Below, piece after piece: positions 20,177-23,624 of a stretch of 64,000 bases of DNA (its first letter is position 1; every line of letters begins with the position of its first letter). A model generated the notes under the pieces. The model saw only the letters and a list, made by a program, of their open reading frames with translations, was not told where the DNA came from and did not search any database. Source of the stretch: Desulfovibrio piger ATCC 29098 (GTDB lineage: Bacteria; Desulfobacterota; Desulfovibrionia; Desulfovibrionales; Desulfovibrionaceae); contig NZ_DS996353.1 in the NCBI RefSeq assembly GCF_000156375.1, forward strand, positions 21,368-85,367, given 5' to 3'. Both the position numbers and the translations under genes were made by a program.

Positions 20177-23100
20177 CTAGGCCGCCTTTTCCATGAACAG
20201 GTTCCTGCGGGCGGCTTCGTGCCGGATCTCCTTGCGGTAGCTGTCGTGCTGGCGCAGGTAGAAGGCCAGCGCGTTGGCGAAATTGTCGCCCAGCAGGCCG
20301 TCGAGGACCTGGCTGGAGATCTCGCGTTGCAGGCGCAGCAGGGAATGCAGGGCCAGGATGCCTTCCACTTCTTCCGTGGGCATGCTGCCCAGGCGACGCC
20401 AGAAGATGTCGTGCGAGCGGGGCAGATAGTACCACATGTACATCAGGTCGAGCAGATGGACGATGGCCTGCCGGGCGGCGTTGGGATCCTTTTCCAAAAG
20501 CTGCTGCCAGAACTCGCGGGGCTGATCCTGCATCAGGCGCCGGATGGTGGCCTGGGGGAAGAGCAGGGCCAGCTTCACGAGATTGTTGAAGATCTGGGTG
20601 AACTTGCTGTCATACTCCAGGGAGCGCATGCGCAGGTACATATTGCGGTCCGCAAAACCTTCGATGACGGCGGCCACGATGTCCGAGGAGCACTTGGAGA
20701 CGATGGCGGCGCAGTTCTGCAGGGCGCCCACCGGATCGGCGATGCCCAGCCAGACGAAGCAGACCAGCAGCCCCTTGCCCAGCACGATGGACAGGGGGAT
20801 GGAGATGGCGCTGCGGAACAGGTTGCCCACGACGGCTTCCTTGGGCAGGCCGCGGAAGATGTTGTGCCCTGATATGTAGACGCTGTTGATCATGGCGATG
20901 ACCGTATAGACCGCCAGCTCGTTGTTCTGGACCGTGATGCCGAGCCAGTCCTCCAGCAGCCACATGCGGACGACCACCTCCAGCAGGGGGACGGATATGC
21001 CCGTGTAGAGCAGCGAGTCCGCCATGCGGCTCCAGCTCACATAGCGGTTCCAGGGCAGGAGCATGGAGCGGCAGAAGGCCCCGCCCCCCACCATGGATTG
21101 CAGGACGTTGCGCACGGCCGTGATGGCGAACCAGAGCAGGGCGCCGATCCAGGTCAGGATCCACCAGCTGTCCACATACCAGAAGGCCCACTGCGCGGGG
21201 ATGAAGCCCAGCAGCACCTTGAGCACGTTCACCAGATTGCTGTTGAAATAGTGGACGTTCCAGGGCGTGGCGGCATCGCGCATCATGCTCACGGGGTCAT
21301 GCTGTTCCGCATTGATGCCGCGGGAGTCCACGCCGCCCAGGGTCACCAGGTTACCGCCGTCGGGGCTGATGGTGGTGGTCTTTTTTTCCAGCTCCCAGCC
21401 CCGGACCACGCGACAGCCCAGATGGTGCAGCAGGGGCAGGCGGCGCAGGGCCTGGAGCCAGCGCGGCAGGGTCGCGGGCTCGTGATAATGGGTAAAGCCG
21501 TAGATGTCGGTATGCACGGGCAGGGTCAGGCGCTGTCCGCTCTTTTCATGGCGCAGGGCGGCCCGGGCCTGCGGGGGCAGGGTCTCGGTGAAGACCAGGC
21601 CCATGCCGTGCGTCATGTGGGAACGGCTGGTGGAATCCGTGCCGATGCGCGAGCCAAGCCACGAGAGCTCGTAAAAACTCCGCAGCTGGGCCAGGTTGTC
21701 CTGCACCTCCAGCAGCAGTTCCCGGCGGGGGGAATCTGCGGGTTCGTCCTGCACGATCCGGCGGACCACCTGCTTGAGGCGCAGGGGGCTGCCCTCGTTG
21801 ATGGCCCGCTGCAGTTCGTTGATGGCCTCGATATGCGGCAGCTGGCCCTTGGACCAGGTGCGCAGGTTGAACAGTTCCAGATGGGTGATGAGTCCTTTGC
21901 CGCGCCAGAGCAGTTCCAGCGTATCCTGTACGTTCAGTCCTTCCAGGCCAAGGATCATCTGGCAGGGATGCAGGGGCACCAGGGACTGCAAAAGGACTTC
22001 GGGATCGCGCAGCAGCACGGGGGGAAGATCCTTGTGGGGCGCCACGGGGAACAAAATGTCCGGGTTGGCCTGCGGTCCCAGCCATTCCTGGCGCAGGCTG
22101 TCAGGCATGAGGCCCTCTATGGCTTCCAGACGGGCGCGCAGGCGGGCGGCTTCCTCGTCCGTGCCCTCCCTCCGGGGATCGTTGCGGAGCTCTTCCAGGG
22201 CCTGTTCCAGGGCGGGCTGCCATTGCTGGAGGATGTATTCGGCCAGATGCAGGGACGATGGCTGGCGCTGGCCCACGAAAGCCAGGAACGCGTCCGCATC
22301 CAGCGGAGGCGGGGGCGGGACTTGCAGCTTTCGGGCCAGGTTACCCGCATGTTTCTGGTTCCAGGCCTGGAGCAGGCGCAGGACATGCTGGCGCATCCAC
22401 TGGTTCACCGTGGCGTATTCCTTGAGGATGGCCGCGATGTCCGGACGCTGGAGCAATTTGATGAAGGCCCGGCTGCTGTGGACATTGAGCGGCGACCAGG
22501 TGAATTCGATGAGCTTGTCGTGGAAAGTGGCCCGGAACTCGATGCCGATGCGCACGGTGATGCCCATGATGCGGGCCGCGCGCAGCAGTTCGCTGGCCGC
22601 TTCGGGGTCCACGGTATTGTAGTAGACGACCGTGATGAAGCGCAGCCCCTTGAGCCAGGCATCCATGACCAGATGCGTGGGGCTCTTGCGGCCCTTGGTG
22701 TTGGCATCATGGACGTGATGGTCGAAGGCCTGCTGGTTCCAGGCTTCGGGCATCTCCAGCAGGTGGTAGCGGCGCAGCAGCGAGCGGATGACATGGGGCG
22801 TGCCGCGCACCGCCTGATAGAAATCGTGGGCCAGCGGCAGCTGGATATGGACGTGCGGCGCGGCGCGGACCAGGTCCTTCATGATCTGGATCAGGACGCG
22901 GGCCGTGTTCTTCTGCAGGCTGGACAGGGCGGAGTAGAGGACCTCGTCATGCAGGCGGCGCAGGGCCTGCAGGCGTTCCTGCGGGCCGCGGGCCTCCAGG
23001 CTCTCCAGCAGGATGATGACGGCGCGGGCGATGCGCATGCCCGGGTCCGTGGTCAGCTTGATGATGCCGCGCGGGTGCAGGCCTTCTTCAGGCTGGGCCA

Positions 23101-23242
23101 GGCTCATGGACATGTTGCGGGCGGCCACGAAACTGTTGACCAGCTGGATCAGCTGATGGTCCTGCAGATCGAACAGCCAGGACGCTTGCTTGTCCGGGCC
23201 GGAAGTGGTGACGGCATTGGCCGAATGTCTGGTGGCGCACAT
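20177..23242 (-). CDS. Large membrane protein with degenerate PHP-like domain (uncharacterised)
   Basis: I do not recognise a named family for this 1021-residue protein. A helical N-terminal part (about 1-160) is followed by a segment that reads like a PHP metallohydrolase. It has FDHHVHD (172-178), SPTHLVMDAWLKGLRF (187-202), YYNTVDPEAASELLRAAR (207-224) and GITVRIGIEF (227-236). The usual second metal motif (TDH before the NT) is replaced by VYY, so catalysis is doubtful. The middle is soluble and Leu-rich. The last third has several hydrophobic segments, roughly residues 700-880 (WWILTWIGALLWFAITAV, IPLSIVLGKGLLVCFVWLG). The start at 23242 has a GAGGGAA site, and the family-free 60-codon upstream extension is left out. 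No operon partner. Confidence 0.75.
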   Translation of the reverse strand: MCATRHSANAVTTSGPDKQASWLFDLQDHQLIQLVNSFVAARNMSMSLAQPEEGLHPRGIIKLTTDPGMRIARAVIILLESLEARGPQERLQALRRLHDEVLYSALSSLQKNTARVLIQIMKDLVRAAPHVHIQLPLAHDFYQAVRGTPHVIRSLLRRYHLLEMPEAWNQQAFDHHVHDANTKGRKSPTHLVMDAWLKGLRFITVVYYNTVDPEAASELLRAARIMGITVRIGIEFRATFHDKLIEFTWSPLNVHSSRAFIKLLQRPDIAAILKEYATVNQWMRQHVLRLLQAWNQKHAGNLARKLQVPPPPPLDADAFLAFVGQRQPSSLHLAEYILQQWQPALEQALEELRNDPRREGTDEEAARLRARLEAIEGLMPDSLRQEWLGPQANPDILFPVAPHKDLPPVLLRDPEVLLQSLVPLHPCQMILGLEGLNVQDTLELLWRGKGLITHLELFNLRTWSKGQLPHIEAINELQRAINEGSPLRLKQVVRRIVQDEPADSPRRELLLEVQDNLAQLRSFYELSWLGSRIGTDSTSRSHMTHGMGLVFTETLPPQARAALRHEKSGQRLTLPVHTDIYGFTHYHEPATLPRWLQALRRLPLLHHLGCRVVRGWELEKKTTTISPDGGNLVTLGGVDSRGINAEQHDPVSMMRDAATPWNVHYFNSNLVNVLKVLLGFIPAQWAFWYVDSWWILTWIGALLWFAITAVRNVLQSMVGGGAFCRSMLLPWNRYVSWSRMADSLLYTGISVPLLEVVVRMWLLEDWLGITVQNNELAVYTVIAMINSVYISGHNIFRGLPKEAVVGNLFRSAISIPLSIVLGKGLLVCFVWLGIADPVGALQNCAAIVSKCSSDIVAAVIEGFADRNMYLRMRSLEYDSKFTQIFNNLVKLALLFPQATIRRLMQDQPREFWQQLLEKDPNAARQAIVHLLDLMYMWYYLPRSHDIFWRRLGSMPTEEVEGILALHSLLRLQREISSQVLDGLLGDNFANALAFYLRQHDSYRKEIRHEAARRNLFMEKAA

Positions 23243-23494
23243 GACGGTTCCCTCGATTGGTGGAGATGCGGGCGGCACTGGGGGCGGCCGGCGGCCGCAC
23301 GATATGCCGGGCTGTCCCTCCCGGTGTGAAAGAAGAAAATGTGACAAATATCGTCGGGGATTGCAAACGGATGAGGTCGGGATGCCCAAGGGGGACGAAA
23401 GGACGGCCCGGGGCGGATGCAAGGCAGGAAGTGCCCCGCATGCGGGGAAGGAGCGGAAGGGACCCCGAACGGCATCCCGGTGGGCCCATAAACG

Positions 23495-23520
23495 AAAAAA
23501 CCCGCTGATTGCTCAGCGGG
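23495..23520 (-). terminator. Intrinsic terminator of tRNA-Ser
   Basis: On the minus strand CCCGCTGA / TCAGCGGG form a perfect 8-bp stem with a 4-base loop, followed by six T residues, 13 bases past the tRNA 3' end. Confidence 0.9.
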
Positions 23521-23532
23521 CTATTTTCTCGG

Positions 23533-23624
23533 TGGCGGAGAGGAAGAGATTCGAACTCTTGGTACGCTTTTAACGTACACACGATTTCCAATCGTGCTCC
23601 TTCGACCAACTCGGACACCTCTCC
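23533..23624 (-). tRNA. tRNA-Ser (anticodon GGA)
   Basis: A 92-base class II tRNA with encoded CCA. The acceptor stem GGAGAGG pairs with CCTCTCC. The anticodon stem-loop has CGATT-GGA-AATCG. There is a long variable arm of the serine type (GTACGTTAAAAGCGTAC) and a TTCGAAT T-loop. GGA reads UCC/UCU serine codons. It is preceded by a good promoter and followed by an intrinsic terminator, so it forms its own transcription unit. Confidence 0.97.

Follow-up and report, generated by a model that had tools for sequence, protein, structure and literature searches.

A widespread bacterial membrane protein family with a complete but altered PHP domain

What might a 1021-residue membrane protein do with a PHP metallohydrolase domain that has lost five of its nine metal ligands? 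The gene that raises this question lies in Desulfovibrio piger ATCC 29098, in a stretch of 64,000 nucleotides from contig NZ_DS996353.1 (the window; positions are counted from its first letter). It runs on the minus strand from an ATG at 23242 to a stop ending at 20177 (20177..23242), limits that an earlier sequence-only reading had given without a strand. The frame stays open further up, as far as a TTG at 23422. Relatives align from about residue 20 of the 1021-aa protein, so the ATG at 23242 is the likely start despite this TTG, and a ribosome-site-like GAGGG (23250-23254) stands 7-8 bases ahead of it. Genes for a GNAT acetyltransferase and a dicarboxylate symporter follow downstream on the same strand. 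The upstream neighbour, outside the gene, is a tRNA-Ser(GGA) gene (23533..23624, minus strand), with a strong terminator-like hairpin at 23499-23522 between the two.

The protein could not be placed by library searches, in agreement with the sequence-only reading, which knew of no described family combining these parts. It matched no PHROG and no PADLOC family, and in Pfam nothing at E ≤ 1 and nothing over a gathering score. The family consensus found no Pfam match at E ≤ 10, and 29 relatives gave scattered weak names only. NCBIfam returned sub-threshold PHP-type matches, all over the same 70-odd residues, and no cut-off was reached. Against the PDB, the sequence alone gave one PHP phosphoesterase lead (E 0.2) and the family profile nothing sensible. 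Among the publications listed in literature searches none dealt with the family, and a PHP protein is mentioned neither in PMC5193443 nor in PMC10102598, in the portions available. From the analyses described below we conclude firmly that the family is real, widespread and without a Pfam model, and that its PHP domain is complete but altered.

The PHP domain

All features of the protein are given with their minus-strand coordinates. In the AlphaFold models, an all-helical N-terminal domain (residues 18-165; 22748..23191) precedes the PHP domain, and a helical C-terminal domain (residues 867-1018; 20189..20644) follows the membrane part. The sequence-only reading had recognized the motif order of a PHP enzyme in residues 172-236. 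The motifs are indeed found there: HxH is H176/H178, SPxxL is S187-L191, NTV is 209-211 and GIE is 233-235, and the TDH motif is lost as had been said, with YYN at its positions. This resemblance goes beyond chance. In a profile-profile comparison by hhalign, residues 160-262 matched a family of 31 RNase AM-type proteins at 90.8% (E 1.2e-6), whereas the highest of the controls, one reversed and six column-shuffled, reached 0.4%; a weak NCBIfam match and the independent agreement of the predicted fold point the same way. The NCBIfam match, the best one in that library, joins residues 173-241, the first 69 PHP residues, to the start of the CehA/McbA-type metallohydrolase model NF038032 (E 0.0025); its 17.3 bits fall well short of the 80 required, and the protein is not a member of that group.

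The model of the whole protein, built from an alignment of 76 sequences, reached a pLDDT of 84.3 and a pTM of 0.82. Foldseek with the full model gave four matches at E ≤ 0.001, each a PHP enzyme. VIA-align over model residues ~170-625 ranked the solved structures 3e0f and 3o0f highest (both Z 20.4; 251 residues at rmsd 2.5 for 3e0f, and 251-255 residues at rmsd 2.5-2.6 for the pair), followed by 2yb1 (Z 18.5) and RNase AM 9etk (Z 17.8), with polymerase PHP domains at Z 11-13. Ranked by Z, the top ten solved structures are PHP domains without exception, ranks 1 to 23 are PHP-containing proteins throughout, and the first non-PHP rows fall below Z 7; the PHP scores far exceed the background that VIA-align itself quotes. 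In the predicted structure, the barrel over residues ~170-625 is therefore a PHP fold, that of the superfamily, and no other fold was seen in the region.

Since the structural matches run over residues ~170-625, the PHP domain extends to about residue 625 and holds a helical insert of 164 residues. The segment noticed at first was thus rightly called PHP-like, while its extent of 65 residues was far too short. The first half of the barrel covers residues 170-261 (22460..22735), the mostly helical insert residues 262-425 (21968..22459; placed by model and hhalign) and the second half residues 426-625 (21368..21967; placed by structure only). The second half carries no sequence signal on its own, scoring 0.3% in hhalign against the RNase AM-type profile. 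Mapping it by sequence was given up, as hhalign also misaligned this half once the insert had been excised. The stretch FVGxGQxSxLHLAEFI in the insert aligns, weakly in sequence, with the insert of the RNase AM family; the hhalign path spans the insert, yet the insert alone scores 2.4% against that family. VIA-align covers 265 of the 280 residues of RNase AM 9etk and 192 of the 206 residues of the PHP-only structure 7ug9.

The closest known proteins are RNase AM (Rnm/YciV), 2yb1 and 3e0f/3o0f (BAD_1165), with 251-265 of their 280-287 residues aligned on the same barrel, the HxH and GIE motifs in common and possibly the site of the insert as well. All three are COG0613-type PHP phosphoesterases, 2yb1 being the 3',5'-nucleotide bisphosphate/AMP phosphatase. 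They are soluble proteins of 280-300 aa with complete sets of metal ligands, whereas the family described here has lost five of nine and adds the helical domains, the membrane domain and the 164-residue insert. It also stays far below the threshold of the RNase AM equivalog NF047791: the family consensus scored 11.1 bits against a cut-off of 375, and at E ≤ 5 the NCBIfam matches of the window protein do not include this model. Elsewhere, the window's genome encodes an RNase AM-like PHP protein in a gene of its own (G000:C41:45390-46163, open frame of 302 aa).

Metal ligands and the motif I loop

In the portions available of PMC3666897, PMC6616362 and PMC5636811, three metals of PHP enzymes are held by nine residues. 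We mapped these ligands by hhalign in the first half of the barrel and by motif and strand order in the second (D536, L433, T538), where the mapping also rests on the divergent relative L144, which has NHP at the place of AHP. Five of the nine canonical ligands are lost, so that the full set of an active enzyme is lacking. In the motif I loop, D174-x-H-V-H-D-x-N-T-K-G-R-K186 (22685..22723), H176 and H178 are kept and the Asp ligand is replaced by K183. At the TDH position (Y207-Y208-N209; 22616..22624) the His has become Y208; the His of the third motif is unconserved; and the AHP His is replaced by L433. E235 of GIE (22538..22540) is kept. In GTDST (534-538; 21629..21643), at the place of GSDxH, the His has become T538 and D536 is probably the kept ligand, given strand 530-534 of the model and the conservation. 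The replacements are shared by most of 76 aligned rows, with Lys at the Asp-ligand place in 74, Tyr at TDH in 69 and Thr at GSDxH in 66.

The four kept residues (H176, H178, E235 and D536) would form one predicted metal site, which would hold one metal at most; the HxH pair presumably completes the same site as E235 and D536. Across 162 non-identical members, the pattern at these four positions is HHED in 129, HYES in 17, HYEN in 5, HHSD in 5, HHEG in 3, and HHQD, RHEG and HHEA in one each. The site is incomplete in 33/162 members, and metal chemistry therefore cannot be the function common to all of them. Judging from the sequences, the PHP part is probably not simply dead, since the other 129 keep four of the nine ligands, a set sufficient for a single metal. 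In the tree, all 22 members with Y178 fall into a single clade (support 1.0) and all 5 with E235S into another; the remaining losses are scattered. The window protein belongs to the copy A clade (support 1.0) and retains all four ligands. A strict co-loss of H178 and D536 had appeared in 10/10 cases among 129 sequences but turned out to be one-way among 162: all 22 Y178 members are without D536, while 5 others without D536 retain H178.

Could the PHP part still be an enzyme? It might act through these four residues as a single-metal phosphoesterase on a membrane-derived phosphoester, the membrane part serving as anchor and substrate channel. We consider this unlikely. The four residues do make a coherent ligand set, and the counterparts of E235 and D536 in M. 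tuberculosis DnaE1 ligate one zinc, the Asp activating water, according to the portions available of PMC5636811. H178 and D536 are lost together in all 22 members of one clade, as joint ligands would be, and phosphodiesterase genes adjoin the family gene in three lineages. The same clade of 22 also counts against an enzyme, having neither residue, as do the five further members in which D536 is changed to Gly or Ala. E235 has become Ser in the clade of 5 and Gln in one member. The erosion is independent from lineage to lineage, while the loop around these residues stays. To our knowledge, moreover, PHP enzymes with single-metal catalysis are not known.

The loop itself stays nearly invariant. 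D174, H176, V177, D179, G184, R185 and K186, together with W196 and K198, reach at least 98% conservation family-wide. In the first PHP half as a whole, this level of invariance is seen at 12 positions with charged, polar or Trp residues, which cluster around motif I; in PHP enzymes, motif I forms the mouth of the active site. With the loop conserved at this level while the ligands erode, selection keeps the loop more than the metals. This conservation also bears on a second alternative, in which the PHP domain would be no more than a scaffold, structural or protein-binding, as has been suggested for that of E. coli Pol III, and the membrane part would work without its help. There is a precedent, as the variant PHP domain of the E. 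coli DNA polymerase III alpha subunit has kept its fold with five of nine ligands lost, the number also lost here (PMC3666897, in the portion available). We nevertheless find a scaffold improbable, because the 12 invariant positions around motif I exceed what a mere scaffold needs. The Pol III domain (2hnh) reaches Z 13.1 only and belongs to a polymerase that has no membrane part.

The membrane part and the spread of the family

Six membrane helices are predicted in residues 668-866 (20645..21241) from hydropathy, the models and conservation; no solved relative was found. The sequence-only reading had placed membrane segments some 450 residues beyond the PHP-like segment. They are present, with the first predicted helix starting at 668, about 430 residues after residue 236. 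Hydropathy and the positive-inside pattern suggest that the N-terminus and the C-terminus are both inside. Invariant polar residues (at least 98% conserved and one of RKHDENQST) occupy 16 of 76 positions in the cytoplasmic halves of the helices versus 2 of 75 in the periplasmic halves. Those of the whole membrane region include R711, N712, Q715, R739, S743, N786, H793, N794, R797, R810, K850, S853, D854, E861 and D865.

Modelled alone, the membrane part with the tail reached a pLDDT of 87.9. Foldseek with residues 655-1021 found no solved structure at E ≤ 0.001, and none of 985 chains reached Z ≥ 8 in VIA, where the best (Z 6.2) covered the helical tail only. As modelled, the membrane part has no clear match among solved structures, which by itself does not make its fold a new one. 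A resemblance to the membrane domain of the Gcr-type 'site-specific recombinase' (SpecificRecomb, PF10136) was considered and dropped for lack of Pfam support: the membrane consensus had no Pfam match at E ≤ 10, PF10136 included, and none of 59 genomes of the phylum has PF10136 above its cut-off. A profile of membrane part and tail was found in 45 of 395 genomes, one trivial match aside, in frames of 954-1234 codons, the exception being G562, where the gene is split across two contigs. In these 395 genomes every real match is a full-length gene and none is another protein, so the architecture is fixed.

Strong matches are found in 243 of 297 genomes of the same order. In an even draw of 395 genomes from the phylum, 53 match at E ≤ 0.001 and 45 of them strongly. 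In seven of the eight weak matches the aligned part is residues 155-263 and the frame, at ~280-335 codons, resembles that of an ordinary PHP enzyme; the eighth (G353) falls elsewhere. In a collection of named genomes, 584 of 591 pattern matches, among the matches listed, encode a relative; among those listed they come mostly from Desulfovibrio, Desulfobacteraceae, Syntrophales and other Deltaproteobacteria, with single cases labelled CSSED10-310 and KSB3, in whose phyla 1/8 and 2/4 genomes match, respectively. No relative was found in the plasmid, phage and viral collections. With this result, and with no PHROG or PADLOC match, a mobile or defence gene was discarded as a candidate, the family being chromosomal core. 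The most divergent relative is L144 (G453), a 954-aa frame that is ~26-30% identical and retains HVHD..EGRK in addition to its NHP.

Genomic neighbourhood and possible function

The neighbourhood of the gene was surveyed at 114 of 120 loci, which form 69 groups at 75% identity. A gene for a glycerophosphodiester phosphodiesterase (GDPD) is found at 6 of the 114 loci (L067, L068, L071, L080, L171 and L144), that is, in 3 of the 69 groups. In every case it directly adjoins the family gene on the same strand, at distances of -44, 3, 22, 22, 63 and 88 bases, and the family gene is thus operonic with it in three distant lineages. One of the three groups is L144, where GDPD lies three bases upstream. 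Five of the GDPD genes are Pfam-confirmed, and that of L080 matches NCBIfam GDPD models below their cut-offs; at L080 it is followed by glpABC, whose products GlpA, GlpB and GlpC pass the NCBIfam cut-offs. GlpK, also above its cut-off, adjoins the family gene at L116. Genes of the ugp glycerol-3-phosphate transporter adjoin it at L078, L081, L084, L111 and L121; ugp permeases were counted at 8/114 loci, which are 5 distinct genomes with three of them counted twice, and the Ugp proteins of L084 pass the NCBIfam cut-offs.

Forty control regions from these genomes contained no GDPD, GlpA or GlpK; they gave two weak matches, one to an ABC transporter and one of GlpC-like type. The 40 case regions had Ugp in 3, GDPD in 2, GlpA/B in 1 and a weak GlpC in one, the adjacent ones being the Ugp cases and one GDPD. 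This comparison counted UgpC matches above 45% identity, and it missed the GDPD of L171, which the 114-locus survey found. GDPD is an infrequent gene in the phylum, with 32 copies across 59 genomes. If each genome is taken to hold 3000 genes, the nominal chance of finding it in 3/69 groups is ~2.5e-6, a value that is too favourable because the link was noticed after looking. Most loci, the window included, have no glycerol-phosphate gene nearby. The window's genome has its GlpK elsewhere and no GDPD at all, so a GDPD partner is not required. The link to glycerol-phosphate genes is after-the-fact and suggestive. GDPD, GlpABC, Ugp and GlpK, neighbours in several distant relatives, are unrelated proteins that suggest a pathway only; together with the conservation, the neighbourhood points towards glycerol-phosphate or phospholipid metabolism.

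Our best explanation, which we hold tentatively as possible but short of probable, is that a PHP domain has been repurposed for phosphate binding and serves an enzyme or transporter that takes part in glycerophospholipid metabolism at the inner membrane. The protein would be a polytopic inner-membrane protein in which a helical domain and the PHP domain, both in the cytoplasm, are followed by the six membrane helices and a tail that is again helical. Its PHP domain would derive from enzymes of the RNase AM or nucleotide-phosphatase type, would have lost their trinuclear phosphoesterase chemistry and may now mainly bind a phosphate-bearing ligand through the D-x-H-V-H-D...K-G-R-K loop. Where the membrane helices end on the cytoplasmic side, their invariant polar residues would form the pocket that does the work. 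A glycerophospholipid or its glycerol-phosphate product might be converted or transported there, at the inner leaflet, while the PHP domain positions the phosphate head group or senses it. A wider claim, which we consider rather unlikely, is that the family is a new bacterial membrane enzyme or lipid transporter of glycerophospholipid turnover, nearly universal in Desulfovibrionales, that combines an unseen six-helix fold and a cytoplasmic polar pocket with a PHP domain used as a head-group-binding or single-metal module.

A sensor or regulator, whose PHP domain would bind a phosphorylated metabolite and signal through the membrane helices or partner proteins, seems quite improbable: two-component genes lie directly downstream in L057-L061, and regulators or kinases lie near the family gene in 14/69 groups, but such genes are common everywhere, none adjoin the gene in the window, and Pfam and NCBIfam found no signalling output domain in the protein. 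In L057-L061, which are copy-A relatives, trpS is upstream in four of five, and the genes directly downstream encode a histidine kinase and a response regulator; the window has neither trpS nor these two genes beside the family gene.

Most genomes in an order of sulfate reducers encode this protein of about 1000 residues, which has near-invariant positions and lacks a Pfam model; this indicates a core, unstudied membrane function. Its hosts are gut and anoxic-sediment bacteria. The family would also offer a natural series of PHP domains that shed their metals stepwise. Two paralogues in one genome, with and without the last metal site, would make the step from enzyme to non-enzyme directly testable. 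The second full-length copy in the window's genome (G000:C41:91077-93995) is 44% identical and belongs to a clade that lacks two of the four ligands retained by the window protein (HxY, GSN/GTS). A third copy, with an open frame of 994 aa, was found in one genome of the same genus (G031:C5:220112-221161).
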